From positions 1-25,886 of IMG/VR virus record IMGVR_UViG_3300037628_000999: a DNA stretch of 25,886 nucleotides. One strand, written 5' to 3'. Position 1 is the first letter of the stretch. Every line of letters begins with the position of its first letter. The translations under genes were made by a program, and so were the position numbers. This document shows positions 270-25,886 of this stretch, in pieces. The stretch is from a virus. The notes beneath the pieces were generated by a model. The model was not told where the DNA came from. It worked only from the letters and a program-made list of their open reading frames with translations, and searched no databases.

Positions 270-677
270 ATGTCGAAATTTGTATTAACAGACGCTAGCC
301 TAGTGATTAACTCGGTTGATCTGTCTGATCATGTGCGCAGTGTCACTATCAACTATGAGGCGGAACTTCAGGATGATACAACAATGGGTGATGATACCCG
401 AACAAACCTTGGTGGGTTGAAGAATTGGTCAATAGATGTCGAATTCACCCAGGATTACGCTGCTTCTAATGTTGATGCCACAATGTTCCCGATAGTTGGT
501 ACCAGTGTTCCGGTAGTTGTTAAACCAACGAGTGGTGCTGTGTCTGCAACTAACCCTAGCTATTCTGGTGATGGCGTTATAGGTGCCTATTCCCCTATTG
601 GTAATAGTGTTGGTGATTTGGCAGTTGCACCTGTTACCATTGCGCCCGCCGGTACACTAACAAGGGCCACATCATGA
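270..677 (+). CDS. Major tail (tube) protein
   Basis: This 135-aa protein fits the family that polymerises into the tail tube of siphophages. It has the typical N-terminal pattern (KFVLTDASLVINSVDLSDHV), a charged MGDDTR turn, then NLGGLKNWSIDVEF and VDATMF, and a C-terminal Ala/Thr-rich strand ending PAGTLTRATS. It is followed at once by the frameshifted tail chaperone pair, the standard order for tail tube genes. GGAG lies about 9 bases before the ATG. Its last codons overlap the chaperone start by four bases, suggesting translational coupling. The length is short but normal for this compact tube family. Function is inferred from sequence pattern and gene order. Confidence 0.85.
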   Translation: MSKFVLTDASLVINSVDLSDHVRSVTINYEAELQDDTTMGDDTRTNLGGLKNWSIDVEFTQDYAASNVDATMFPIVGTSVPVVVKPTSGAVSATNPSYSGDGVIGAYSPIGNSVGDLAVAPVTIAPAGTLTRATS

Positions 678-1024
678 TACTTACCAAAGATCAAATATTA
701 AAGTGTAGGCCGTTGGATTTTATTGATGTTAAGTGTAAAGGTCTTGGTGGAACGGTGCGAGTTAGTGCAATGAGTGCATCAACCCGTGACATTTTCGAGC
801 AAAGAATGGCTAAGGTTGGGGAACTTGAAGAAGGGGTACAACCTAATTTAAGAGCCATGTTTTTAATTCATTGTATTGTGGACGAACAAGGGTCCTTGAT
901 ATTTAATGTCGATGATATAGAATTACTAGGTGCACAAGATATCACCGAGATAGGATTACTTTTCAAATATGCACAAGAGATAAACGGACTTTTAGATGAT
1001 GAGGAGGAAACTAAAAAAAAGTAG
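674..1024 (+). CDS. Tail assembly chaperone, upstream (G-type) product
   Basis: This 116-aa protein is the in-frame product of the tail chaperone locus, corresponding to lambda gpG. Such proteins bind the tape measure and recruit tube subunits during assembly and are absent from the mature tail. It lies between tube and tape measure genes, is mostly helical, and ends in an acidic then lysine-rich tail (DDEEETKKK). The stop TAG (1022-1024) directly follows a run of eight A. The ATG at 674 overlaps the end of the tube gene and has AAGGG upstream. A second product is expected by -1 slippage (see the extension entry). No domain is claimed beyond this positional and architectural match. Confidence 0.8.
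   Translation: MILTKDQILKCRPLDFIDVKCKGLGGTVRVSAMSASTRDIFEQRMAKVGELEEGVQPNLRAMFLIHCIVDEQGSLIFNVDDIELLGAQDITEIGLLFKYAQEINGLLDDEEETKKK
1002..1021 (+). promoter_or_regulatory. Programmed -1 frameshift signal (A AAA AAG with upstream SD)
   Basis: In the chaperone frame the codons read ACT AAA AAA AAG TAG, giving the slippery heptamer A_AAA_AAG at 1015-1021, the same heptamer used by E. coli dnaX. A perfect anti-ribosome sequence AGGAGG lies at 1002-1007, seven bases before the heptamer; an internal Shine-Dalgarno at similar spacing stimulates -1 slippage in dnaX. After the shift, reading continues from 1021 (GTA GCT GGT...) without a stop to 1236. I see no strong downstream stem-loop. Confidence 0.85.
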
Positions 1025-1236: not shown

Positions 1237-1654
1237 TTTTGAAATGGATACTGGTGAATTGGAAAGTATTCTTAATAATTTACATGATGAGATTAAATTA
1301 AAAGTTACTAGGTTGGCCGTTGCTGCCGGCGCAAGGATTATAAGAGATAGTGCTAAATCACTAGCACCTTACGATTCATCACGGTCGAGCGGCGTTCACT
1401 TAAGAGACGCCATAGTTGTTTCTCGTGTCAGATCAACGAATGATGTATACATAATAGGGACAAGGTCTAAGGGAAAAAAAGCTGCACCTCACGCTCACCT
1501 ACAAGAATTAGGAACTGTTAAAATGTCACCACAGCCTTTTCTCAGGCCAGCTTCTGAAGTGAGCGCACAGGCTGCTATAAACGAGATAATTAAACGACTA
1601 GAAAAAGGCGCGTTAAGAGAAGCTAAGAAATTGGCGAAAAAAGGCAAAAAGTAA
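1226..1654 (+). CDS. HK97 gp10-like tail component
   Basis: This 142-aa protein resembles the HK97 gp10 family of minor tail or tail-completion proteins. It has the family's N-terminal helix and AGARIIRDSAKSLAPYDSS region, a central HAHLQELGT motif, the SPQPFLRPA signature near residues 110-118, and a long basic C-terminal helix rich in Lys. The PFLRPA motif and length are good matches. It starts inside the end of the chaperone extension and its stop overlaps the tape measure start (TAATG). In many phages this gene precedes the tail tube; here it lies between chaperone and tape measure. It could have a modified role in tail tip or termination. Confidence 0.75.
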   Translation: MEFDFEMDTGELESILNNLHDEIKLKVTRLAVAAGARIIRDSAKSLAPYDSSRSSGVHLRDAIVVSRVRSTNDVYIIGTRSKGKKAAPHAHLQELGTVKMSPQPFLRPASEVSAQAAINEIIKRLEKGALREAKKLAKKGKK

Positions 1655-3528
1655 TGGCTAGTGTATTTAATTTAGAAGGGCGATTAGGATTAAATGTCGT
1701 TAAGTTCAAAAATAAGCTTAACGAGGCTAAAAAGGGTGTGAGTACGTTTAAGAAAAATGTACAGAAAGATATTAAACAAATAAAGAAATCATTTAGAGGT
1801 GTTAGTAAAACCATTGGTGAAATGAATAAAAGATTATCGCAAGGTATTGCGATAGCGGCTGCTGGCTTTGGGTTACTCACCATTAAAGCAACACAGAGCG
1901 CTGAACAGATTGGACAGCTAGCATCAACAACCAACTCAACAGTTAAGGAAATACAATCCTTAACAATGGCATTTAGTCAATATAAGCTAGAGGCGGATGA
2001 CGTAGGTGATGTTCTTAACACTATCACCGACAGGGCACAGGATGCTAAGGACGGTATGCAATCGTATGTTGACGACTTCCGCTTAGTTGGTATTGAAGTT
2101 GATGACCTAAAGGGTAAACGTCCAGCTGAATTATTTAATACATTTGCCGATGCTGTGGCTAAAACTAATGATCCAGTTAAGCGCAATTCAGCAATAGTAA
2201 GGATACTAGGGGATGATCTCGGTCGAAAACTTGCCCCTGCATTGATGGGTGGTTCTAGGTTGTTTAAAGAGCTGGCAGCCGAAGCAGAGCGTGCCGGTAT
2301 TATTATGAATGCTGGCACAGTACAGGGTGCTATTAATGCCAGCAGATCATTAGAAAAGCTGAAAAATATCGTTGGTAGTGGTGTTAATAAAGTGTTTGCT
2401 AAAATGGGACCATTCATTGAATCGGCGAATAAACGATTAATTAATTTCATTAATGATAGTGTTAATTTTGACACAGTTTTTAATAAAGCATTATTTGGTT
2501 CAATTAAACTAGTTGGTACATTTGCGGATGCGTGGCGTGGAATAGAAATTATATTTGCCGGTGTTAAGGTTGCAGCGTTCGGGTTCACCACTGCCTTTAC
2601 TGGTGCATTGAACGGTATTCTAAGTTTAGCAGCTGATTTTGGCAACGCTATTAAAAATAGTGTATTACTACCTCTACGCTTCATGATTGATATGGCCGCC
2701 AAGTTACCAGGTATCGGTTCAAAGTTTAAAGCGCTTGCTGATGAAATTAATAATTTTGAATTCAAACCACCTAAATTAACTGTTGATGCTTTCAATTCTC
2801 AAATCGAGGCAATGAAGCAATCGACAGTTGAATTACAAGAATTACTCTTGAAACCTTTACCTAGTGAGGGTATTAATGAGTGGGTAGAGGGTGTTAAAGC
2901 AGCAACACTTGAATTAACAAAGGCGGCAAATGAAGCGGAAGTATTACGCATCAAACTGGGTGAAACTTCCACAAGTGCGGGTGAAGATTTTACCCAAATG
3001 AAAAAGGATGCTGAGGTTTTTGGTAATTCAATGCGTAGTGTCCTGGGTAGTGAGATATTGAACGTGATGAAGGGGAATTTTGATAGCATGGGTGATGCTT
3101 TTATATCGATGTTACAAAGAATGGTAGCCCAGGCTATTGCCGCCGATATTGCGGGTGCAATAGGATTGGGTGGTACTGGTGGTAGCGGAGGTGCTTCATT
3201 TATATCTGGCGCTCTTGGCTTCGCTGGTGGTATATTCGGTGGCGGTGGTAGTGGCGCTCTTGGTCCAGGTATGGCTGGACCACCAGTACCAGCTGGCTTT
3301 GCTAATGGTGGCACCCCATCATTAAACAGGGCCGCTATTGTGGGTGAAAAGGGGCCAGAATTATTTGTACCCAGGCAAAATGGAACAGTGGTACCAAATA
3401 ATAAAATGGGTGGTGCTGGTGGTAATACTGTTACTAATAATTTCAATATCAGTACGCCTGATGCGGCTAGCTTCAAATCTAGCCGTACCAAGATTATAAA
3501 CGATATGGCAAGAACGGTGAGGGTTTAA
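1654..3528 (+). CDS. Tail tape measure protein
   Basis: This 624-aa protein sets tail length and is thought to help DNA pass the envelope. The N-terminus is Lys-rich and helical (FKNKLNEAKKGVSTFKK). The region around residues 60-250 is typical of tape measure proteins (AAAGFGLLTIKATQSAEQIGQ, then VVKEIQ-like and DLGRKLAPALMGG-like segments). Hydrophobic segments lie near residues 295-330, and the tail of the protein is Gly-rich with the common FANGGTP...VGEKGPELFVP motif near residues 545-575. At 624 aa it predicts a fairly short tail by the usual length rule. It directly follows the gp10-like gene (TAATG). The next recognised tail gene is 542 bases away, unusual spacing for this operon. Confidence 0.93.
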   Translation: MASVFNLEGRLGLNVVKFKNKLNEAKKGVSTFKKNVQKDIKQIKKSFRGVSKTIGEMNKRLSQGIAIAAAGFGLLTIKATQSAEQIGQLASTTNSTVKEIQSLTMAFSQYKLEADDVGDVLNTITDRAQDAKDGMQSYVDDFRLVGIEVDDLKGKRPAELFNTFADAVAKTNDPVKRNSAIVRILGDDLGRKLAPALMGGSRLFKELAAEAERAGIIMNAGTVQGAINASRSLEKLKNIVGSGVNKVFAKMGPFIESANKRLINFINDSVNFDTVFNKALFGSIKLVGTFADAWRGIEIIFAGVKVAAFGFTTAFTGALNGILSLAADFGNAIKNSVLLPLRFMIDMAAKLPGIGSKFKALADEINNFEFKPPKLTVDAFNSQIEAMKQSTVELQELLLKPLPSEGINEWVEGVKAATLELTKAANEAEVLRIKLGETSTSAGEDFTQMKKDAEVFGNSMRSVLGSEILNVMKGNFDSMGDAFISMLQRMVAQAIAADIAGAIGLGGTGGSGGASFISGALGFAGGIFGGGGSGALGPGMAGPPVPAGFANGGTPSLNRAAIVGEKGPELFVPRQNGTVVPNNKMGGAGGNTVTNNFNISTPDAASFKSSRTKIINDMARTVRV

Positions 3529-3611
3529 GTCCTAAACGTTATTTCACAAACTCAATGCCCTGTAGTATATTTTAATCATACCCATTAACAAAGACAACCA
3601 AGGCGGCTAAA

Positions 3612-3698
3612 ATGTTTAATTTCTTAATGACACACCAAGTAAGCAGACTTCAATCAATGTTAGCAATTATGGTAACCCTTATAATCATCATATTTTAA
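3612..3698 (+). CDS. 28-aa putative membrane microprotein
   Basis: The ATG at 3612 is preceded by AAGGCGG five bases upstream and opens a 28-codon frame ending TAA at 3696-3698. The peptide has a polar N-terminal half (MFNFLMTHQVSRLQS) and a hydrophobic end (MLAIMVTLIIIIF) long enough for one short membrane span. Function is unknown. It is the first of three small ORFs between tape measure and distal tail genes. Its last codons lie in an imperfect 23-bp tandem repeat. The good ribosome site and hydrophobic design favour a real gene, but at this size chance cannot be excluded. Confidence 0.4.
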   Translation: MFNFLMTHQVSRLQSMLAIMVTLIIIIF

Positions 3699-3723
3699 CC
3701 CTTACAATTATCATATTTTAACC
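3674..3723 (+). repeat. Imperfect 23-bp tandem repeat
   Basis: Two adjacent units, 3674-3696 and 3697-3719, share the pattern AACCCTTA(T/C)AAT(C/T)ATCATATTTT, followed by the start of a third unit (AACC). The first unit is the end of the 28-aa ORF and the second lies between it and the 44-aa ORF. It may be a slippage product or a protein-binding site; I see no hairpin. Confidence 0.7.
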
Positions 3724-3736
3724 GAGGCGGCTTTAG

Positions 3737-3871
3737 ATGACTAAAATGAACAAGTATTTTTATGACGCTAGTGGTCACGATATTAATGGCTACGATGGTA
3801 ATGGCCTTAATGCTGGGGGCCTTAATAGTTATGGTACTAGGGTATGGATACTGGATGATAAATATTTATGA
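3737..3871 (+). CDS. 44-aa G-[YHL]-[DN] pentapeptide-repeat protein
   Basis: The ATG at 3737 has GAGGCGG about eight bases upstream and its TGA (3869-3871) overlaps the next ATG in an ATGA coupling. The peptide is organised in five-residue units after FYDAS: GHDIN, GYDGN, GLNAG, GLNSY, GTRVW. The same design, with near-identical units such as GHDxNGYD, occurs in the 72-aa protein encoded at 25009-25227 on the other strand. Gly-aromatic-Asp repeats of this kind are found in scattered bacterial and phage proteins with no firm function known to me. No signal peptide or enzyme motif is visible. Translational coupling to a two-span membrane protein suggests the two act together. Confidence 0.6.
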   Translation: MTKMNKYFYDASGHDINGYDGNGLNAGGLNSYGTRVWILDDKYL

Positions 3872-4074
3872 ATAAATTATTAGCGGTTTTAGTATTCCTT
3901 GGTTGGTACTTATTAATCAATAGTTTAGCTTGGGGTTTGGTTCTGATACATAATTTATTACTCAATGCCACGAAACTAGATATTGTAATTTTCACTCTCC
4001 TTGTCGGCACTATAGCTACCCTTATATCATGGGCTGAAGTAACCAACTTTTGTGAGAATAGGCACTACTTATGA
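3868..4074 (+). CDS. Small two-span membrane protein
   Basis: This 68-aa protein has two hydrophobic segments, about residues 5-30 (LAVLVFLGWYLLINSLAWGL) and 36-56 (LDIVIFTLLVGTIATLISW), and a short polar end with one Cys (NFCENRHYL). It overlaps the 44-aa repeat protein by ATGA at its start and the DUF2460 gene by ATGA at its end, so it is translated within the tail operon. Tail structural modules seldom carry such a protein here. Possible roles include superinfection exclusion, an accessory holin-like function or host membrane modification. None can be chosen from the sequence; the two-span prediction is the only firm statement. Confidence 0.65.
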   Translation: MNKLLAVLVFLGWYLLINSLAWGLVLIHNLLLNATKLDIVIFTLLVGTIATLISWAEVTNFCENRHYL

Positions 4075-4727
4075 CATTCTTAGAGACACCCCGTTTCCCT
4101 GTTGATCTTAATTATGGATCAGTCGGTGGACCCGTGTTTAAGACCGATATTGTTGTCTATGGTAATGGGCACGAGTATAGGAACAGCCTGTGGTCAACAC
4201 AGCTTAATCGTTATGATGCTAGATATGCTGTTAAATCAAGGGTAGATCTAGTCAATGTTTATGAGTTCTTTATTGCTCAGCAGGGTTCAGGGAGTGGGTT
4301 TAGAATAAAAGATCTATTTGATTTTACAAGTGCGACCGATGGGAAAAGTGCACATGCCAATACTGATGTGTTATTGGGTGTGGGTGATGGTATAGAAGTT
4401 GACTTCCAAATAATTAAGAATTATACCAAAGGTATATCCACAACAGCAAGGAAAATAATAAAACCTGTGGTGGGTAGTACTTTAGTTAGAGTTGATGGTG
4501 TATCTAAAACTGAAAGTGTTGATTATAGCGTTGACTCAACCGCAGGTATCATCACTTTCAATGTTGCACCAGCAGATACCGTGGATATAGAGGCTGGGTT
4601 TATATTTGATGTCCCTGCAAGATTTGATAGCGATGATTTGAGCCATGTACAACTTTTACTCTACACTACATTAGGGTCAGATTTAGCCAGTATCGAATCA
4701 ATACCGCTTATTGAGGTTAGGGAATAA
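4071..4727 (+). CDS. Distal tail protein, DUF2460 (GTA g12-like)
   Basis: This 218-aa protein matches the DUF2460/TIGR02217 family, the distal tail (Dit-like) protein of gene transfer agents and related siphophages. The N-terminus has the family pattern (FPVDLNYGSVGGPVFKTDIV, then GHEYRNSLW), followed by RYDARYAVKSRVDLVNVYEFF and GFRIKDLFDF. The distal part repeats beta strands (DGVEVDFQ-type, LVRVDGV, DYSVDSTAGIITFN, AGFIFDVPARFD). The ring it forms would join the tube to the hub encoded next. Start by ATGA coupling with the small membrane protein; the stop overlaps the next ATG. Length agrees with the family. Recognition rests on conserved sequence and on the 12-13-14-15 order that follows. 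Confidence 0.9.
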   Translation: MTFLETPRFPVDLNYGSVGGPVFKTDIVVYGNGHEYRNSLWSTQLNRYDARYAVKSRVDLVNVYEFFIAQQGSGSGFRIKDLFDFTSATDGKSAHANTDVLLGVGDGIEVDFQIIKNYTKGISTTARKIIKPVVGSTLVRVDGVSKTESVDYSVDSTAGIITFNVAPADTVDIEAGFIFDVPARFDSDDLSHVQLLLYTTLGSDLASIESIPLIEVRE

Positions 4728-5818
4728 TGGCGACAATAACTAGTACTAGAACAGATTACAAAAACGCAGGTGATATAACGGATGCCCAGTGTGTAAGAAT
4801 TGTTAGAAAAGATGGTGAGATTTTACGATTCACTAATTCTGTAAATGATCTGGTGATGAGTGATTATGTCGATTCAGATGGTGTTCAATTATCCTTACCC
4901 AACGATGTCACCTATATCAGTATTGGATTTAATACAACCGCCACCCATAGTGGTAAGGATATGTCACCAGGAACTGTAGACCTAGAGGGTGTTCTATCAG
5001 CAACAAATATTTCTAGAAATGATTTGAAAAAGGGACTTTATAATCAGGCTAGGATTTATGTTTTTTATACAAACTATAATGATCCTGTTGAAGATGATGA
5101 AAAGCTCATTAGTGGTTTTTGGGGTGAAGCAACCGTTAACGATGGCACTTACTCGATAACTTTTAACTCATTGATTGATGTTCTTAACACTCGTACGGGT
5201 AAAAGTCACTCACCAACTTGTACAGCTCGATTGGGTGATGATAAATGTGGTGTTAGGTTGACACCACCTAATTGGTCATCATTAACAGCGTACACTGTAT
5301 TGGACCCCAATGACGCAAAATTAGGGTCCCTAGTTACACCAATTACTCAGACTGGCTTCTTTTACATTTGTACTATATCAGGTACTAGTGGTGTTAGCGA
5401 ACCCATATGGCCTATTGTGGTTGATGAGACTGTGAACGATGGATCAGTCGAATGGACGGCTATTTTACATTATACCCAGAATGGTTCACTGACATCGGTA
5501 GTTGATCGTTCTGGATTTGTTGATACTGACAGAACTGAACCCGACGATTGGTGGACTCAGGGTAAAATAATATTTACCAGTGGTGCAAATGAAGGAATGA
5601 CTTTTGATATAAAACAGTCATTCTTGGCATTCAATAGTATTAGTGTAAAACAGGAGGCTCCTTTTGATTTTGAAGTGGGGGACACTTACATTATTACGAC
5701 AGGCTGCCGTAAGAGACTTATAGAAGATTGTATAGGAGAATTCAAGAATGTCTACAATAACCAAAGCAGCCCATGGATACCAGGACGCTCAGTTATTGGG
5801 AAATTCGGTGGTCAATAA
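4727..5818 (+). CDS. Tail hub protein, DUF2163 (GTA g13-like), with inserted domain
   Basis: This 363-aa protein fits DUF2163/TIGR02218, the baseplate hub of GTA-like tails. The family core includes the N-terminal CVRIVRKDGEILRFT segment and the Cys motif SPTCTARLGDDKCGV at residues 162-175, with a second pair, GCRKRLIEDC, at 326-335. Cys165, 174, 327 and 335 are candidates to bind an iron-sulfur cluster, as described for hub proteins of this kind. Residues about 184-248 break the core with a module containing YICTISGTSGVSEPIW and DGSVEW, a pattern common in tail fibre add-on domains, making this protein longer than the usual 280-300 aa. Its 3' end overlaps the NlpC/P60 gene by 71 bases. Confidence 0.88.
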   Translation: MATITSTRTDYKNAGDITDAQCVRIVRKDGEILRFTNSVNDLVMSDYVDSDGVQLSLPNDVTYISIGFNTTATHSGKDMSPGTVDLEGVLSATNISRNDLKKGLYNQARIYVFYTNYNDPVEDDEKLISGFWGEATVNDGTYSITFNSLIDVLNTRTGKSHSPTCTARLGDDKCGVRLTPPNWSSLTAYTVLDPNDAKLGSLVTPITQTGFFYICTISGTSGVSEPIWPIVVDETVNDGSVEWTAILHYTQNGSLTSVVDRSGFVDTDRTEPDDWWTQGKIIFTSGANEGMTFDIKQSFLAFNSISVKQEAPFDFEVGDTYIITTGCRKRLIEDCIGEFKNVYNNQSSPWIPGRSVIGKFGGQ

Positions 5819-6194
5819 GGCACGAGAATATATTGATGTCCCATATCGCCACTGTGGACGTGATAGAAATAGTGTTGATTGTGCAGGCTTGATTCTATGT
5901 GTGTACAAGGATATAGGTATTGAATTACCACCTGTTCCCAACTATGCAAGAATCGTTGAACCTAATTTTCTGTTGAAAATGATGAATGATAGATTTAAAC
6001 TAATTGGCGGCATTAATGACGCTAAATTAGGTGATGTTGTTGCACTTAGATTTTCACACCAACCCCAGCACATATCAATATTTGCAGGTAATACATTAAT
6101 CCATAGTTATGAGAAAGCGGGTAAGGTAATAGAACACCGGCTTGCAGATGTGTGGATTAAGCGAGTAGTAGGGGTTTACCGATATGTCAGATAA
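5748..6194 (+). CDS. NlpC/P60 tail-tip peptidase (GTA g14-like)
   Basis: This 148-aa protein is an NlpC/P60 cysteine peptidase of the phage type (TIGR02219), expected to cut peptide stems of peptidoglycan during DNA entry. The catalytic Cys45 lies in NSVDCAGL, His108 in QHISIF, and His119 is a candidate third residue. GDVVAL precedes the His motif as in the family. The start at 5748 has AGGAG about nine bases upstream and gives a 71-base overlap with the hub gene in another frame; later starts would remove the family N-terminus. Its stop overlaps the tail-tip protein start. It follows DUF2163 as in GTAs. Confidence 0.92.
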   Translation: MSTITKAAHGYQDAQLLGNSVVNKAREYIDVPYRHCGRDRNSVDCAGLILCVYKDIGIELPPVPNYARIVEPNFLLKMMNDRFKLIGGINDAKLGDVVALRFSHQPQHISIFAGNTLIHSYEKAGKVIEHRLADVWIKRVVGVYRYVR

Positions 6195-9100: not shown

Positions 9101-9711
9101 GTAATTGGGAGATAATAAAATTCACAACTTCCACATTGGTGAGTGGTACTGAATATAACCTTGGCGGATTATTGCGCGGTCAATATGGTACCGACTGGGT
9201 TATGAAATTTCACCAGGAGGGTGACTTTGTAGTATTACTCGATGCGGGTGATATTCATAGGATGCAAATGACTACCGATAACTATTCACTCACATATCGT
9301 TATTTAGCAATAACTTTAAGTACTGCATTTGATGACCGATTCGGTGTAGATGCATACTCTAATGGTACTGCATTAAAACCACATGCACCAACACATGTTA
9401 AAGGTATAAGACAAAGTAACGATGATTTAGTTATAACCTGGATACCTCGTGGTCGTTACGGTTTTGATTGGAAAAATGGTGTCGGACAAACTGTTACAGA
9501 TTCACAAGTATTTACTGTCATAATACTTGATAATGAAATATCAAAGAGACAAATTACTAGCGCACCTGGTGTGAATAGTGTAGATTACAGTGCAGACGAT
9601 CAGCTTATAGACTTCGGGGTACTATTTACAGATATTGATATTCTAGTCTTCGCGATAGACAATGTGGTAGGTAATGGTATTAAAAGAGAAGCGACAATCA
9701 TTAGTAAATGA
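6184..9711 (+). CDS. Tail-tip / host-specificity protein (phage-tail_3, GTA g15-like) with large insertion
   Basis: This 1175-aa protein is the central tail-tip fibre, comparable to GTA g15 and lambda J. It begins with a Gly-rich hydrophobic segment (residues 6-36), then IDDLTIQTSKYGEYIPRVH and the YSYSVTMAIMICEGPITGI core. Around residues 645-840 the phage-tail_3 region follows (DGYTVSRPSPISSALKPL, FRFDVFEADYQIKF, PGRIEITYKSKDREYEEG). The C-terminal part has GGAIYQSKDKG and NLGGLLRGQYGTDW, common in this family. Between NLSFEVIDNE (near 215) and the segment that normally follows it closely (DVLTASDYDTSGL near 630) lie about 400 extra residues rich in beta strands. This insertion probably carries surface-binding structure. 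Confidence 0.88.
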   Translation: MSDKQAIGAVGGGIIGFFIGGPLGAVKGATLGYSIGTSFDTTELDATEGPRIDDLTIQTSKYGEYIPRVHNTDRLTGNVFWVDGNQIHETKHTEDVEQGGKGGGGSKQSVTTYSYSVTMAIMICEGPITGIRKIWADNTLIYNMGNASDLSSTAKSLESTDDMEIFLGTADQLPSVTIELEKGIGATPAFRGSAYVVFTNLALEDYGNRIPNLSFEVIDNEYVDTTPVLITHYYLPSGMSDPDLDFYPTGDETKIDSATLPWYYENGVLNFMRWGVTQPGETEGINGLNYARIPQLPGSAPLALENMPYNYFVSKSMDDFTTVLAAERFDSYPWDLPGSIDNYKSLFIRPVDNGPGMFLTTHFASNPGNRILSLGLRLRSGSIRYVGFPETGVSDIQESVLVSHRDGLIYLSRPDTGSLFPTIPGSLFAFDMSSVDWTLSTDYFTVFDNNSYLDDLLVIEGVLPPLNAEAFSWGLDPYSTAFYRIRETAALLESFDTRLIQIGVGIDITSLLVGYTDLGKRFVVRDNIIYLSHKKTSNSHYVLRKWVVESGTVTQELEFDIGVNKYMEFNHSIVDIHPNMFAYAHNGSVTSQGTLGVNRSTGMFLLTPALDNFTEITVPDAVGAEMDRIDVLTASDYDTSGLNADIVDGYTVSRPSPISSALKPLQQVFRFDVFEADYQIKFVTRGTKTSAVTLTPDDIRAHEVGSKAPPQAVHSYGNPNAVPGRIEITYKSKDREYEEGFAIADRLTLEREAITKLSVPLVMSADNAYKTADILLLDTERESKGVYEIVVPFKYSHLERTDIITLGTDNETSLNLRIIEIEKGAPGLVKIKSVLESAGDYTSNAVGDSGTFTDGAILSEPSAQLFFLDIPQLRTADNDPGLYWGMTTRGNATTWRGGAIYQSKDKGVSWNIADTALNPMKHGIAINKLSEDTFTIFTYNQELNINMINGIPETKTETQVRAGANLVAYGRPGNWEIIKFTTSTLVSGTEYNLGGLLRGQYGTDWVMKFHQEGDFVVLLDAGDIHRMQMTTDNYSLTYRYLAITLSTAFDDRFGVDAYSNGTALKPHAPTHVKGIRQSNDDLVITWIPRGRYGFDWKNGVGQTVTDSQVFTVIILDNEISKRQITSAPGVNSVDYSADDQLIDFGVLFTDIDILVFAIDNVVGNGIKREATIISK
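8856..8878 (+). other. Perfect GC-rich palindrome inside the tail-tip gene
   Basis: CGCCACCAC (8856-8864) and GTGGTGGCG (8870-8878) are exact inverse complements with a five-base loop. It codes for part of a NATTWRGGA segment common in the protein family, so codon choice may explain it. Listed because a 9-bp GC stem stands out in AT-rich sequence. Confidence 0.5.
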
Positions 9712-9733
9712 TATATAAAAGAGTGGTAATACA

Positions 9734-12025
9734 ATGAGTACTGAATTATTATTAATTGATGAAATCACACAAAGCGACAATGATAAATTTATCACTCACA
9801 ATACAGCCAACAGACAAATTGAAGGTCAGCGAACAAGGATAATCACCCGCACCAATGGTGGCCCACCAATATCGCCATCGGCCGGTGATACATACATGGT
9901 AGATGTCACCAATAGCTCTTGGGTTACGGCGGCAATAGGGGACTTAGCGCATTTTTACGGCGGTCAATGGTTCTTTTACACGCCAGCCGAAGGTATCCAA
10001 CGGGTGTGGGTTAATGACGAGGATGTCGCCATAACATTTGATGGTACTGCATGGGTTAATGAATCAGGTGTAAGCCTGGGTATCACTGTAGAAACGGGTG
10101 GTGGGTTAATTTTTAATACCTCCCTTACTCAAACCAGTACTATTGAACCGACTGTTCTAGGCACACTACTTGATAGCACTAATTTAAATGTGCCCGTTGA
10201 TATATTTGTCAGAGGCGATTATGCTTATATAGTGTCGCAAACAGGTGATAGTTTAACAATCATTGATATAAGTGACCCTATGCTGCCAATACTTGAGGGT
10301 GTGTTAATCGATGGTACTAACTTGAATGGTGCCCATGGTGTGGCCGTCGCGGGTGATTATGCTTATATAGCATGTAATACTGGTAATTCAGTTACCGTGA
10401 TTAATATAAGTGACCGTACAACTCCCGTCTTTACTGGTATTATTGTTGATGGCACTAACTTGAATGGTGCAAGTGATATCCAAGTTGTGGGCACTTACGG
10501 ATATGTTACAGCAACAACAGGAGATCGATTGACTATCATTGACTTGAGTATAGTCGAGTCCCCATTAGTTATTGGTTCGGTTACAGATGGAACTAATCTA
10601 AACGGTCCTATAGGGTTAGATATTGATGGTAATTTTTGCTATGTTGCATGTAACACTGGTGATAGTCTAACTATTGTTGATATCACCAGTGTTACGACCC
10701 CTACTATTACGGGTCAGCTTATCGATGCTACCAACCTGAATGGTTGTAATAGTGTTACGATTCAGGGTAAATATGCCTATACTGCATGTGGTGACAACGA
10801 TAGCATGAGTGTTGTTGATATAAGTGACCCCACCACCCCCATCTTTGCAGGCAGTGTTGTTGATGGTACTAAACTCAATGGTGCTTTTGGTGTTGCTATC
10901 GCTGGACATTATGCTTATTTAACCAATGAGGCTGCTGATTCAGTAAGTGTAATTGATATAAGTGACCCAACCACGCCTGTAGAAGTAAATACCCTTACAG
11001 ATGTAACTAATCTAAACGGTGCCTATGGTATTTTTCTTTCGGGTAACTACCTTTATATTACAGCAAAAGATGGTGACAGAATAACAGTCATTAATATTAA
11101 CGGTGCACGATTATTGTCAGCAGATATTGGCAATATCAAAACACACCACATCGAAGTCAATCAAGAAGCTCAGGTTGGTGCACTAACAAGTAAAGGTGCT
11201 ATATTTGCTGGCGGTGGAATAAAAACACAAGGTGACATTAGTCTAAGTGGTACCCTTGATCGAATGTTTAGAGCAACGTCGACAACCTCATGCTATTTCG
11301 ACCTCAATAGTGCTACAGCTAAGAATGCTGGTTTTCGATTATTTAAAGATAAAATATTTAAATGGCAGATCTACAACGATGGTGATGGATCGGATAAGCT
11401 TTCTATTGAGAATAGTAGTGGGGTCATTATCTTAGACATGACTCAGGCTGGTGCATTGAAACTTAAAGACGGGACCGATGCCTTACCCCCCTATACATTC
11501 ATTGATGAACCTAATAAAGGAATGTATAGTGCAGGGGTTAATACTATAGGTTTGTCAACCGATAGTGTGCAACGCATGAAAGTTGATAATAACGGAGTAT
11601 CGGTCACATCGGGAATATTGACTATAGACAATGGCCAACTCTTTGCACCAGGGCATAACACAACAGCAAGTGCGGCTAATGCCCACCTCGATAGTGGTAC
11701 AGGTGAATTGAAGCGCTCCACATCATCACGTAGGTTTAAACGTGATATTGTGGCCGCTGATAAAAAATGGTTGAAATCAATATTAAACGCCACCGAGGTG
11801 GTTACTTATAGATCTGCAATTAAAGGTGATGACCATAGTCTACAGCTAGGTTTAATTGCAGAAGATACACACCCCTTGTTGGTATGTTACGATAGTGATG
11901 GTAAACCGAATGGTGTACAATATGAACGTGTGGCACTGTTGGCTATTTCTGAGCTGCAAGATACAAACAAGCGATTAGATAAATTGGAGGTATTGGTTGA
12001 GAAGCTTTTATTTGATAAGGAATAG
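9734..12025 (+). CDS. Receptor-binding tail fibre: DUF2793, seven LVIVD repeats, S74 chaperone
   Basis: This 763-aa protein looks like the adsorption fibre. Residues about 40-108 match DUF2793 (GDTYMVDVTNSSWV, FYGGQWFFYTP, ITFDGTAWV). Residues 141-462 hold seven consecutive 46-residue LVIVD-type repeats, each with DGTNLNGA, GDYAYIA and SLTIIDISDPTTPV-like elements, predicting a seven-bladed beta-propeller. A linker with beta-helix-like repeats follows (VEVNQEAQVGALTSKGAI-type). Residues about 662-763 form a Peptidase_S74 intramolecular chaperone with the conserved S-S-R-R-F-K-R-D-I start and a C-terminal coiled coil (ISELQDTNKRLDKLEVL). S74 domains usually trimerise the fibre and cut themselves off. 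It follows the tail tip directly. Confidence 0.9.
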   Translation: MSTELLLIDEITQSDNDKFITHNTANRQIEGQRTRIITRTNGGPPISPSAGDTYMVDVTNSSWVTAAIGDLAHFYGGQWFFYTPAEGIQRVWVNDEDVAITFDGTAWVNESGVSLGITVETGGGLIFNTSLTQTSTIEPTVLGTLLDSTNLNVPVDIFVRGDYAYIVSQTGDSLTIIDISDPMLPILEGVLIDGTNLNGAHGVAVAGDYAYIACNTGNSVTVINISDRTTPVFTGIIVDGTNLNGASDIQVVGTYGYVTATTGDRLTIIDLSIVESPLVIGSVTDGTNLNGPIGLDIDGNFCYVACNTGDSLTIVDITSVTTPTITGQLIDATNLNGCNSVTIQGKYAYTACGDNDSMSVVDISDPTTPIFAGSVVDGTKLNGAFGVAIAGHYAYLTNEAADSVSVIDISDPTTPVEVNTLTDVTNLNGAYGIFLSGNYLYITAKDGDRITVININGARLLSADIGNIKTHHIEVNQEAQVGALTSKGAIFAGGGIKTQGDISLSGTLDRMFRATSTTSCYFDLNSATAKNAGFRLFKDKIFKWQIYNDGDGSDKLSIENSSGVIILDMTQAGALKLKDGTDALPPYTFIDEPNKGMYSAGVNTIGLSTDSVQRMKVDNNGVSVTSGILTIDNGQLFAPGHNTTASAANAHLDSGTGELKRSTSSRRFKRDIVAADKKWLKSILNATEVVTYRSAIKGDDHSLQLGLIAEDTHPLLVCYDSDGKPNGVQYERVALLAISELQDTNKRLDKLEVLVEKLLFDKE
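10154..11119 (+). repeat. Seven in-frame 138-bp units encoding propeller blades
   Basis: Seven units of 138 bases encode 46-residue blades, at residues 141-186, 187-232, 233-278, 279-324, 325-370, 371-416 and 417-462 of the fibre. Each holds (D)xTNLNG and xVxxISxxxxP positions. The units have diverged at the DNA level, so this is an old array. Seven blades close a ring, which explains the copy number. Confidence 0.85.
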
Positions 12026-12386
12026 TAATAGGCCTGGGGTTCTGATATCACCAGAGGTTGGTCATGTGTGCTTTATACTTGAGCCACCATGGCGTGATAA
12101 TCGTTCCAATGTGTCATGCATACCCACGGGTGATTATACAGTTAAATACCTGCCCCGTAGTGCTTCGGGTAAGTACAAGGACTGTTACCATGTCCAGGAT
12201 GTAGAGGGTAGGTTTGCAATACTCATCCACAAAGGGAATACCCGCCGTGATACTATGGGGTGCCTATTACCAGGTTCAAGGATTGGAATTCTGGGTGGTA
12301 GGCTTGCTGTTCTAGGGTCAGCCATTGCAATGCGTAAAATTCACAAGGTTACCGAAAGAAAGGAATTTTTATTACATGTCCGCTGA
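11997..12386 (+). CDS. DUF5675 protein, candidate wall-active enzyme
   Basis: This 129-aa protein matches the DUF5675 pattern: LEPPWRDNRSNVSCIPTGDYTV (residues about 29-49), then RFAILIHKGNTRRDTMGCLLPG (72-93). Residues H78, G80, N81, T86, G88 and C89 recall the H-x-G...(S/T)-x-G-C arrangement of YkuD L,D-transpeptidases, so a Cys-based cell-wall activity is plausible but unproven. It lies between the receptor-binding fibre and the holin, and no standard endolysin is seen nearby. The start is TTG at 11997 with GGAGG six bases upstream, overlapping the fibre gene by 29 bases. It could alternatively be structural. Confidence 0.7.
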   Translation: MRSFYLIRNSNRPGVLISPEVGHVCFILEPPWRDNRSNVSCIPTGDYTVKYLPRSASGKYKDCYHVQDVEGRFAILIHKGNTRRDTMGCLLPGSRIGILGGRLAVLGSAIAMRKIHKVTERKEFLLHVR

Positions 12387-12709: not shown

Positions 12710-13240
12710 ATGCTAGAAATATTATCAATGCTAGGCAGCGCTACCGGGGGTGGCCTATTGGGTATCGCTGGGAACTTCTTAAAATCACGCACTGAAATTA
12801 AACTAAAAAAGATTAATCATGAGCATGAGGTTACATCTCGTATCCATGATATTGAGGAAATGAAGCTAGAAGCAACGCTACGTAAAGAACAAATCCTTCT
12901 TGAAAATGCGGGACAATTAGCACTTGCTAATGTTGAGGCTCAACGCTCCCAGGATGTGGCGGCTTCGGAACTAATGGCGGATAGTTTCACAATGGACAAG
13001 GCTAGTTATGGTGGTGGTTTTGTGGACACCATACGAGGATTAATACGGCCATTAATTACTGTATACCTTTTGGTTGCTTTTAGTTACCTTTGTTACAAGG
13101 TAACCACCATGGTAATGGTTTTGGATGCAATAAGTAATGATGAGTTAGTTGAACTCTATACGGAATTAATCCATTCTGTAATTTTCCTGACCACAACTGC
13201 TACTTGCTGGTGGTTTGGGTCACGTGCCACCAACAAATAG
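12710..13240 (+). CDS. Holin-like membrane protein (3TM type)
   Basis: This 176-aa protein resembles the 3TM holin family (GTA_holin_3TM) that opens the inner membrane for release. It has a Gly-rich hydrophobic N-terminus (residues 5-23), a long charged helical middle (about 28-90), then two membrane segments near residues 112-130 (IRPLITVYLLVAFSYLCYK) and 152-170 (ELIHSVIFLTTTATCWWFG), with an SRATNK tail. AGGAG lies eight bases before the ATG. It is the last plus-strand gene of the tail/lysis block and ends convergently with the VRR-NUC gene. I know the family by architecture and the FIRGLIRP-like motif; length agrees. A spanin role is less likely because no lipobox is seen. Confidence 0.75.
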   Translation: MLEILSMLGSATGGGLLGIAGNFLKSRTEIKLKKINHEHEVTSRIHDIEEMKLEATLRKEQILLENAGQLALANVEAQRSQDVAASELMADSFTMDKASYGGGFVDTIRGLIRPLITVYLLVAFSYLCYKVTTMVMVLDAISNDELVELYTELIHSVIFLTTTATCWWFGSRATNK

Positions 13241-15416: not shown

Positions 15417-15986
15417 TTGACAATCGGATTTACTACACTTGAAGAACTAGAGAGAGCGGTGGAAGCGCTTACAAACCTCCCTGGGTTCAATAGTACTCCA
15501 TTACCTATACCAACCCCGCAAGACCCGGTACCAATAGTTAGTGAGCAAGACCCGGTACCAATAGTTAGTGAGCAAGACCCGGTACCAATAGTTAGTGAGC
15601 AAGACCCGGTGCAGCCTGGTATTATGCAAAAAGTCATTGTACAAAAAGAGCAGCAACAACAAGCCTTATTGGACAAAAGCAACATACCATGGGATGCTCG
15701 TATTCATACAAGCACTAAGGGTCAAACAAAGCACGGGATATGGAAAAGAAAACCACGCATTGAAGATGAGTTCTTCAATGCGATTGTTGAAGAACTATCA
15801 AGTGGTAAATTAAATCATTCCCAGTTGTTGCAAAAAATGTTTGATGCTGTTGCGACTAGTAAAGTTTCAGTATGCACCATAGGTGATGCATTGAATGCCC
15901 TTGGTTTAAAAACTCTTGATGATGCTAGTGGTAAGCCTGAAATAATAGAGAGTTTAGCGAAAACACTAGGATTATCAGATGAGTGA
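15408..15986 (+). CDS. Unknown replication-module protein with exact QDPVPIVSE repeats
   Basis: This 192-aa protein opens the plus-strand replication block. The start TTG (15408-15410) has AGGAGA seven to twelve bases upstream. After about 37 residues come three exact QDPVPIVSE units plus a fourth partial one (residues about 38-67), a Pro-rich spacer, then a Gln-rich stretch. The C-terminal half has IPWDARIHTSTKGQTKHGIWKRK near residues 85-110, a WDxRIHxxxK...G.W(R/K)(R/K) motif common in uncharacterised phage proteins near replication genes, then helical segments. The function is unknown; binding to DNA or a replication partner is a guess from position. The stop overlaps the DUF2800 start. 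Confidence 0.8.
   Translation: MFELTIGFTTLEELERAVEALTNLPGFNSTPLPIPTPQDPVPIVSEQDPVPIVSEQDPVPIVSEQDPVQPGIMQKVIVQKEQQQQALLDKSNIPWDARIHTSTKGQTKHGIWKRKPRIEDEFFNAIVEELSSGKLNHSQLLQKMFDAVATSKVSVCTIGDALNALGLKTLDDASGKPEIIESLAKTLGLSDE
15519..15610 (+). repeat. Exact 27-bp tandem repeat, 3.4 copies, in frame
   Basis: Units 15519-15545, 15546-15572 and 15573-15599 are identical, followed by 11 matching bases to 15610. Each adds nine residues (QDPVPIVSE). With no base differences, the array is recent or maintained by slippage; unit gain or loss keeps the reading frame. Confidence 0.95.
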
Positions 15987-17073
15987 TCATTCTAGCGTTC
16001 CGCCTAGTGGTTTAGGTCGTGCTGTAAAATGTAGTGCCGCATTAGTACCTAATGCCTCAAATAATACACCTAATGAGGCGGCACTTGAAGGTAGTACTGC
16101 ACATTGGTCGAATGATGAACGATTAAAAGGTATTGATGTAAAAGTTGGTGATATCTGTCCAGAAACTAATTTACCGGTAGATCAGGATATGCTTATCTAT
16201 GGTGATTTATATATTGATTATGTTAGAAAATTAGGAGGTGAAGTAGGTTCAGAATACCGTGTATCTATCCCACAGATACATAAGCTATGTTGGGGTACAC
16301 TCGATTATTATGCGTACTATAAAACCTTAACAATCGTTGATTACAAGTATGGTTTTATCACTGTCAATCCCGCCGATTCAATACCATTGGTAGCATACGC
16401 AAGGGGAAAGGCTAACGATCTCAACTTAGATTCAAATACACAAGTGAAGCTTGTTATTGTACAGCCTCGACCATGGCACGAAGCCGGCAGGATACGGGAA
16501 TACCACACAACATTATATGATATCGATAAACAGATCGAGATTATACATAATGCAGTGAAAGAGGGACTTAGTCAAAATAGGACGGCTAGGACAGGTGGCC
16601 AATGTATGTATTGTGTAAAGGCCGCAAGATGTGAGGCGCTGACACTCGCAACATATAATGCTGTAGACATAGCTCGACGTGATTATGATGTTATTGATTT
16701 TGGCAATAAACAGTTATCAATCTGCTTAGATAACTTAGAAAAAGCGGAGGCATTAATTAAAATTAGAAAGGACGCACTGGCAGAAAAAGCAAAAGATTCC
16801 CTATTGAGGGGTGATAGGGTCCCTGGTTATTCAATTAGGTCCACTTATAGTAGTAAAAAATGGACGAAACCAGATGATGAGATTATAATGGCTGGTGAAT
16901 TGTTGGGTGTGACACTATCTAAGGAGACATTAATTACACCAGCACAGGCAAAAAAACTAAATGTACCAAGTGATATTATTGATAAGCTTTCAATAAGTGT
17001 TCAAACAGGTACTAAATTAACCAGGTCGGATGATAATCTGGCAAAACTAATATTTTCAAAAAAGGCGGAATAA
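15979..17073 (+). CDS. DUF2800 PD-(D/E)XK nuclease, Cas4/RecB-like
   Basis: This 364-aa protein fits DUF2800, a phage family of the PD-(D/E)XK superfamily. It opens with PPSGLGRAVKCSAALVPN, where Cys18 stands alone, and GSTAHW (39-44). The catalytic set is likely Asp109 (WGTLDYY) and Asp121-Tyr-Lys123 (VDYKYG), with Glu92 a possible partner. Cys209, 212 and 218 (QCMYCVKAARC) plus Cys18 have the one-plus-three layout of Cas4 and AddB iron-sulfur nucleases. A coiled region follows. It sits directly before the ssDNA-binding protein gene, as in Enc34-like phages, and may supply 5' or 3' end resection for recombination. Polarity cannot be told. Confidence 0.85.
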   Translation: MSDHSSVPPSGLGRAVKCSAALVPNASNNTPNEAALEGSTAHWSNDERLKGIDVKVGDICPETNLPVDQDMLIYGDLYIDYVRKLGGEVGSEYRVSIPQIHKLCWGTLDYYAYYKTLTIVDYKYGFITVNPADSIPLVAYARGKANDLNLDSNTQVKLVIVQPRPWHEAGRIREYHTTLYDIDKQIEIIHNAVKEGLSQNRTARTGGQCMYCVKAARCEALTLATYNAVDIARRDYDVIDFGNKQLSICLDNLEKAEALIKIRKDALAEKAKDSLLRGDRVPGYSIRSTYSSKKWTKPDDEIIMAGELLGVTLSKETLITPAQAKKLNVPSDIIDKLSISVQTGTKLTRSDDNLAKLIFSKKAE

Positions 17074-17074
17074 A

Positions 17075-17755
17075 ATGGAACAATTAATTACACCATTGGG
17101 TAGGCTTGTACAAGGTTCACTTTTCGTACCTAACACAAAAAACATGGATGGCCAACCACTTGTAGACAAAAAGGGGAACCCTACTGTGCAATATTTTATT
17201 GCACTTGCTATTGAGAAAGTGAACCCAGACATCGGACCGCTATTGGCTGAAATGCAAAATAGTGCAGGCCAACATTGGCCCAGTGGTGAATCAACAAAGA
17301 GTGGTTTTAGCTGGAAAATTATAGACGGTGACACCCGCACAGATAAGGAAGGATTCAGTGGTTGTTGGGTCCTTAAATTTTCTTCTATATTTGCGCCTAC
17401 AGTCTATGAAGATGGTGGAACAACAACCATTACACAACCCGACAGAATCAAACGTGGTGATTATGTTAGAGTTGCCGGGAATTATGTTGGCAATAAATCA
17501 ACAATATCACCAGGTATGTTTTTAAATCTAAGCATGGTTGAATTCAAGGGATATGGTGAAGAAATAAAGACAGGACCCACTGGTGAAGTGTTCGGTGCCA
17601 CCCAGGTAGGTTACATTCCATCAGGGATGAGCACAACCCCCACGTCAAACCCCAATAGTACATTTGGCCAGCAAGTGGTAGCACCCATGCAGCAAGCTCC
17701 TGCTCAGCAAGGCACAATAGCCGAGGATGTGCCTGACTTCAGTTTCCTAAGTTAG
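17075..17755 (+). CDS. Single-stranded DNA-binding protein, Enc34 type (DUF2815)
   Basis: This 226-aa protein matches DUF2815, characterised in phage Enc34 as an ssDNA-binding protein with an OB-like fold. The family N-terminus is LITPLGRLVQGSLFVPN, followed by PTVQYFIALAIEKVNP, FSWKIIDGD-type and GCWVLKFSS segments. The last 35 residues are Pro/Gln/Ser-rich and end EDVPDFSFLS, an acidic tail with a terminal Phe as in many SSBs, which normally recruits partners. It coats unwound template during replication and recombination. AAGGCGG lies seven bases before the ATG and the gene follows DUF2800 after one base. Two hairpins follow its stop. Confidence 0.88.
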   Translation: MEQLITPLGRLVQGSLFVPNTKNMDGQPLVDKKGNPTVQYFIALAIEKVNPDIGPLLAEMQNSAGQHWPSGESTKSGFSWKIIDGDTRTDKEGFSGCWVLKFSSIFAPTVYEDGGTTTITQPDRIKRGDYVRVAGNYVGNKSTISPGMFLNLSMVEFKGYGEEIKTGPTGEVFGATQVGYIPSGMSTTPTSNPNSTFGQQVVAPMQQAPAQQGTIAEDVPDFSFLS

Positions 17756-25314: not shown

Positions 25315-25886
25315 TATAGCGCCAACCACTCATATGAATAGTAACAATCTAAGATTCTTAAATCACTCACTATGCCCATATGACGACCGTGTAAAGTCAC
25401 CACAAATAGCCCCTCTTTATCCTTGACCGCTTTACCAACCGTCTTGTGATTGTCAAGGATTAGGTAGTTACCTATTCGTGGCGGTGTTAGGTTGCGTGTT
25501 TTGTGTTTCAGTGGCGGTTGTTGTGCTACCGGTGCTGCTGGTGGTGCTGCTGGTGGTGCTGCTGGTGGTGCTGCTGGTGGTGCTGCTGGTGGTGGTGCTG
25601 GTGCTACCGGTGCTACCGGTATTGTTGGTGTTGCCATATCCACCCCCACCACCTTAGCTTGGGATTTACCGGCACCACACCGGCGCGAATTGCTGATTAT
25701 TCGATCTCTTGTCACCTGCCAACCATCAGCACCACTACCTTTTCTTGGTGCTGCCACCCTATCCACTCCCATGATTAATGTAACCACACCATGAAGAGCA
25801 GTAGACCAATCGAGGAATGGTTGTTCACTATAAGTAGCCTTAGATGTGTCAAACATTTCCGTGATCATTGAAGCGCTCCCATACAT
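25314..25886 (-). CDS. Pro/Ala-rich protein of unknown function, possibly partial
   Basis: This frame encodes at least 190 aa and reaches the window edge; an ATG sits exactly at 25886, but the gene may start further upstream. Residues about 1-85 are polar (MYGSASMITEMFDTSKATYS, DGWQVTRDRIISNSRRCGAG). Residues about 86-120 are a Pro-Ala linker with PPAA repeats, and about 128-190 form a second domain with IGNYLILDNHKTVGKAVKDK and FVVTLHGRHMGIV, which looks beta-rich. The linker between two compact parts suggests a two-domain structural or binding protein. No family is recognised. It is coupled to the 26-aa microprotein by TAATG. Confidence 0.7.
   Translation of the reverse strand: MYGSASMITEMFDTSKATYSEQPFLDWSTALHGVVTLIMGVDRVAAPRKGSGADGWQVTRDRIISNSRRCGAGKSQAKVVGVDMATPTIPVAPVAPAPPPAAPPAAPPAAPPAAPPAAPVAQQPPLKHKTRNLTPPRIGNYLILDNHKTVGKAVKDKEGLFVVTLHGRHMGIVSDLRILDCYYSYEWLAL
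25540..25587 (-). repeat. 12-bp tandem repeat encoding PPAA
   Basis: Four exact 12-base units (GGTGGTGCTGCT on the plus strand) with partial units on both sides encode a P-P-A-A repeat linker. Units keep the frame, so length can vary by four residues. Confidence 0.9.

Follow-up and report, generated by a model that had tools for sequence, protein, structure and literature searches.

The window analysed here is a viral record of 25,886 bases from IMG/VR (IMGVR_UViG_3300037628_000999) in which end repeats are absent. Positions 1654-6194 encode a GTA-like tail module consisting of a tape measure protein, a DUF2460 protein, a hub protein carrying Gp84/BR0599 domains, and a peptidase of the NlpC/P60 type. 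In RcGTA, the tape measure protein, the distal tail protein and the peptidase are encoded by g11, g12 and g14, respectively (PMC7296036). The gene order in the window (tape measure, DUF2460, hub, NlpC/P60, large central protein) resembles this RcGTA-type module of g11, g12 and g13-g15. In the RcGTA-like modules examined here, DUF2460 follows the tape measure gene with no gene in between, whereas the window carries an insert at this position. The features of the locus are listed in Table 1.

Table 1 Features of the inserted interval, its flanking genes and a related repeat ORF in the window
Feature	Position	Strand	Evidence and remarks
Tape measure protein	1654..3528	+	Upstream neighbour of the insert; PHROG 9483, E 1.9e-44
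Inserted interval	3529..4070	+	542 bases from the tape measure stop (3528) to the DUF2460 start (4071); absent in the relatives scored, present in the identical sibling L003
Sigma-70-like boxes TTCACA-17-TATATT	3543..3571	+	Consensus scan, 10/12 matches; overlaps the start of leader copy 1
Leader copy 1 (ATATTTTAA...AACCAAGGCGGCT)	3567..3608	+	Its end lies 3 bases ahead of the ORF1 ATG
ORF1, 28 aa, probably not a gene	3612..3698	+	Codon score; repeat-derived hydrophobic C-terminus
23-bp tandem repeat	3673..3723	+	TRF, 2.2 copies, 92% matches; also found by repeat search (family D10)
Leader copy 2 (ATATTTTAA...AACCGAGGCGGCT)	3690..3732	+	Ends 4 bases before the ORF2 ATG
ORF2, 44-aa G-[YFHL]-[DN]-x-x pentapeptide-repeat mini-protein	3737..3871	+	Codon score; related repeats elsewhere in this genome
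ORF3, 68 aa, two hydrophobic spans (~residues 3-25 and 33-57)	3868..4074	+	ATGA at both ends; hydropathy; fixed-stop chance 0.002
DUF2460 distal tail protein (RcGTA g12 position)	4071..4727	+	Downstream neighbour of the insert; PF09343, E 5.4e-59
Second G-Y-D repeat ORF, 72 aa	25009..25227	-	Similar to ORF2 (E 0.01); codon score 0.207, coding-like

The interval is a real, unusual and lineage-specific insertion. A first-pass annotation of this DNA had described a gap of 542 bases between tape measure and DUF2460 as an extra unit within a late tail operon and had suggested a comparison with related phages. The gap is present as described, and the comparison was performed with relatives sought via the tape measure, hub and major tail proteins, which yielded L004, L010 and L100. 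Of the relatives spanning the junction, L010 and L100 are the nearest two, and both lack the insert. In L010 (DUF2460 68% identical), the end of the tape measure gene overlaps the start of DUF2460 in TAATG, and in L100 (DUF2460 53% identical) the two genes are 1 bp apart. Across 83 scored relatives the spacing reaches a maximum of 133 bp, compared to 542 in the window. Five of six annotated phages with the module (from Paracoccus, Rhodobacter, Desulfofustis, Roseobacter and an uncultured freshwater source) have -1 to 11 bases between the genes. The sixth, a Dinoroseobacter phage, has an annotated gap of 71 bases, but its DUF2460 alignment match begins inside the annotated end of the tape measure. 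The sole other carrier found is the sibling fragment L003, which is 100% identical over 8982 bp and has the same insert. The extra unit is therefore missing in every scored relative apart from this identical fragment, which supports the earlier description. The GC content of the interval is 34.5%, compared to an average of 39.1%; 7.7% of windows of the same size are equally low.

The interval had been described as a three-gene cassette. All three ORFs are present at the sizes given earlier, but the third gene did not hold up. The codon score of ORF1 is -0.115 bits/codon, below the 5th percentile of real-gene stretches of equal length (-0.01), and its hydrophobic run (residues 21-28, VTLIIIIF) is encoded inside the 23-bp tandem repeat. 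No homologue of ORF1 was found in Pfam, PHROGs, PADLOC, the phage and plasmid collections or the viral contigs. ORF1 is non-coding-like and probably not a gene. Since it is without coding support, the cassette is reduced from three genes to two. The interval holds two likely genes, of which ORF2 is better supported than ORF3. ORF1 may just be sequence trailing an older or newer copy of a leader that is duplicated in the interval.

The two leader copies, each of about 43 bp, align locally with a score of 35 that was reached by none of 3000 Markov shuffles. No third copy was found elsewhere in the window or in the loci searched. The same GGCGG ribosome site had been proposed ahead of both small ORFs; GGCGG is indeed located at 3602 and 3726, a few bases ahead of the ORF1 and ORF2 ATGs and within the duplicated leader, and the duplication accounts for the shared motif. 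GGCGG also occurs at 17064, just upstream of a gene for a ssDNA-binding-like protein at 17075, and for this reason the phage may be able to use it as a ribosome site. In the region, the consensus scan returned 11 promoter-like matches on both strands, compared to 3.2 expected, and no terminator-like site was found in 3300-4300. A structured RNA in the leader was considered and rejected: the window has no Rfam match, and the leader folds more weakly than its shuffles (z +2.3).

The description of ORF2 as a G-Y-D repeat protein agrees with its consecutive motif units in an open frame (GHDIN GYDGN GLNAG GLNSY) and with coding-like codon use. Its codon score of 0.325 bits/codon lies well within the range of real genes and above the 95th percentile of wrong frames (0.062). 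Three such motifs in a row are found at only two loci in the window, ORF2 and the 72-aa ORF on the minus strand, and nowhere in 698 kb of relatives. ORF2 and the 72-aa ORF share 10 of 20 compared residues, and 6 of those 10 codons differ, synonymously only. The synonymous differences suggest that the likeness lies in the protein and not in recently copied DNA, in an alignment that was itself picked by protein likeness. The 72-aa ORF is partly made of a 30-bp tandem repeat.

A scan of viral contigs for four consecutive G-Y-D units returned 95 stretches, which include stand-alone ORFs of 43-157 aa as well as repeats inside long proteins. Examples are a stand-alone ORF of 43 aa in L150 (1053-1184) and, in L130 (930-8337), several of 80-123 aa that are dispersed between replication genes; L122 is also among the contigs with small G-Y-D repeat ORFs. 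The repeats are further present in gp70 of Rhodococcus phage E3, which is annotated as structural, and in hypothetical proteins of Gordonia plasmids. ORF2 shares with the G-[YF]-[DN]-x-x proteins of phages (E3 gp70 and the L150 and L130 ORFs) the period of five residues and the motif of glycine, aromatic residue and acid or amide. It differs in having only about four degenerate units, with Leu replacing Tyr/Phe in two of them. By its motif units, ORF2 is a short, degenerate example of this class. No family model in Pfam, PHROGs or NCBIfam matched the repeat, and no paper on it was found under the names tried. ORF2 itself gave only chance-level matches in Pfam, PHROGs, NCBIfam, PADLOC, the phage and plasmid collections and the viral contigs, and the 72-aa ORF has no homologue among PDB sequences. 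Judged from their sequences, the G-Y-D mini-proteins are an unnamed recurrent accessory element, found several times per genome in some phages and twice here, that is cheaply testable.

ORF3 had been described as a two-span protein joined by ATGA overlaps to ORF2 and to DUF2460. The overlaps are located at 3868-3871 and 4071-4074, and the hydropathy profile has two maxima with a 19-residue mean of about 2.0 each, on a hydropathy scale and not from a topology predictor. The two spans suggest a membrane protein, for which the proposed action on the host membrane is plausible, and the late position and the coupling suggest that it is made together with the tail proteins. Among Markov sequences, 0.2% give an ORF that begins with ATG, runs for 68 codons or more and ends at the fixed stop of ORF3. 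The whole-codon score is borderline (0.029; real-gene 5th percentile 0.062, other-frame 95th percentile 0.051), and the synonymous codon choice is typical of the genes of this phage (0.061 vs. a median of 0.066). Beyond L003, no homologue was found in Pfam, PHROGs, NCBIfam, PADLOC, PDB sequences, the phage and plasmid collections or the viral contigs. A minus-strand ORF that overlaps ORF3 (3837-4046) is unsupported, with a total codon score of -0.034.

The unit had also been called moron-like, and this description stands for its position only. As in the morons of lambdoid phages, the insert separates genes that are adjacent in relatives. Its GC content, below that of most of the genome, and its promoter-like box, a consensus match, might be further moron-like traits. 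In contrast to these morons, it shows no terminator in the stretch scanned and is translationally coupled, through ORF3, to the downstream tail gene. Without a terminator the insert falls outside the morons in the strict sense and, with this coupling, it is built into the operon and does not form an autonomous unit. The insert is plausibly an ordinary accessory gene insertion in a phage late operon.

In HK97, the gene for gp15 is located in the tail gene region. Its product, the superinfection exclusion protein of a moron, is predicted to lie in the inner membrane and is connected to tape measure function (PMC10883804). ORF3, beside a tape measure gene, resembles this accessory siphophage gene in encoding a predicted small membrane protein. 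The two differ in that HK97 gp15 is expressed from the prophage, whereas ORF3 is coupled to the translation of a tail gene and accompanied by a second small gene. Neither an integrase nor a repressor was recognised among the scanned proteins of the 26-kb fragment, which leaves a prophage-expressed exclusion role unsupported, and no lysogeny gene was recognised among the proteins scanned. ORF3 has no significant match to known exclusion proteins in Pfam, PHROGs, NCBIfam or PADLOC.

As a tentative explanation, which we hold to be possible rather than probable, the interval is a gained insertion of about 540 bp with coupled ORF2 and ORF3, and ORF3 is an inner-membrane exclusion protein like HK97 gp15. 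The phage lineage would have gained the insertion between its tape measure and distal tail genes, and ORF2 and ORF3 would be translated late with the tail genes, either starting at the duplicated leader or by read-through out of the upstream tape measure gene. ORF3 would insert into the host inner membrane as a helical hairpin and, as HK97 gp15 does, hinder the genome entry of competing siphophages; ORF2 would be a soluble partner or an independent passenger. It is a weak analogy of size, hydropathy and neighbourhood that points to exclusion, and the replication and tail genes seen suggest no other obvious role for ORF3. If the function is confirmed, ORF3 would be a new small membrane protein without sequence kinship to the known exclusion factors, encoded beside a tape measure gene in a GTA-like tail group, with no such protein seen at this site in the relatives examined. 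A wider version would make ORF2 and ORF3 partners in a two-component late membrane system that excludes competing phages, and the G-Y-D mini-proteins a general unnamed class of scattered accessory genes; it is quite improbable.

The interval could instead be a non-functional spacer that recombination left behind, in which the ORFs merely happen to be open and the tandem repeat and the duplicated leader are debris. The repeat-derived, non-coding-like ORF1, the borderline codon score of ORF3 and the low GC content would fit such a spacer, and 8% of random intervals with the same composition contain a plus-strand ORF of 68 aa or longer at some position. Two ATGA couplings in succession, the second onto a tail gene, would not be expected of debris; nor would the low chance of ORF3 at its fixed stop or the coding score of ORF2 and the related repeats elsewhere in this genome. 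We regard a spacer as rather unlikely. The reverse history, an ancestral interval that was lost in relatives and not gained here, would require the interval to have been lost separately in L010, in L100 and in every distant relative, and is highly improbable. What speaks for it is that L004, the nearest relative with a tape measure 84% identical, breaks off inside that gene before the junction, so that a gain within this pair is not datable.

Other functions of the two genes were weighed as well. The position of ORF2 and ORF3 between tape measure and distal tail genes, their coupled order and the G-Y-D repeats in E3 gp70 and in long proteins of other phages would agree with one or both being part of the tail tip or aiding its assembly. 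Every relative makes this tail module without either gene, and the usual components of a tail are less hydrophobic than ORF3, so that a virion role appears unlikely. A two-span holin, pinholin or antiholin would share with ORF3 its small size, two hydrophobic spans and late position. No endolysin adjoins ORF3, however, and by position the lysis genes more probably lie downstream of the tail genes, where a DUF5675 protein (11997-12386) and a protein of 176 aa with hydrophobic spans at its C-terminus (12710-13240) are encoded. This argument from position is weak because the libraries assigned a lysis function to neither of them. A role in lysis is considered improbable, and the gained pair with a gp15-like ORF3 is kept as the preferred, tentative reading.

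Several further observations were made in the window and its relatives. In L100, the hub protein of DUF2163 type contains an in-frame extra domain of about 160 aa (9277-9759), and the NlpC/P60 gene is absent between the hub and the next large tail gene. Positions 1-127 and 668-794, at the start of the contig, form a 127-bp direct repeat with 100% identity, and the start of L003 is a 98% copy of window 465-806, placed directly upstream. These repeats suggest a tandem duplication of the end of a tail-tube-like gene (270-677), or an assembly effect. A putative tail fibre (9734-12025) has LVIVD beta-propeller repeats with a 138-bp period and a weak C-terminal match to endosialidase-chaperone. At 15518-15610, exact 27-bp tandem repeats code for QDPVPIVSE units, and on the minus strand at 25531-25603, 12-bp repeats code for a Pro/Ala-rich stretch.
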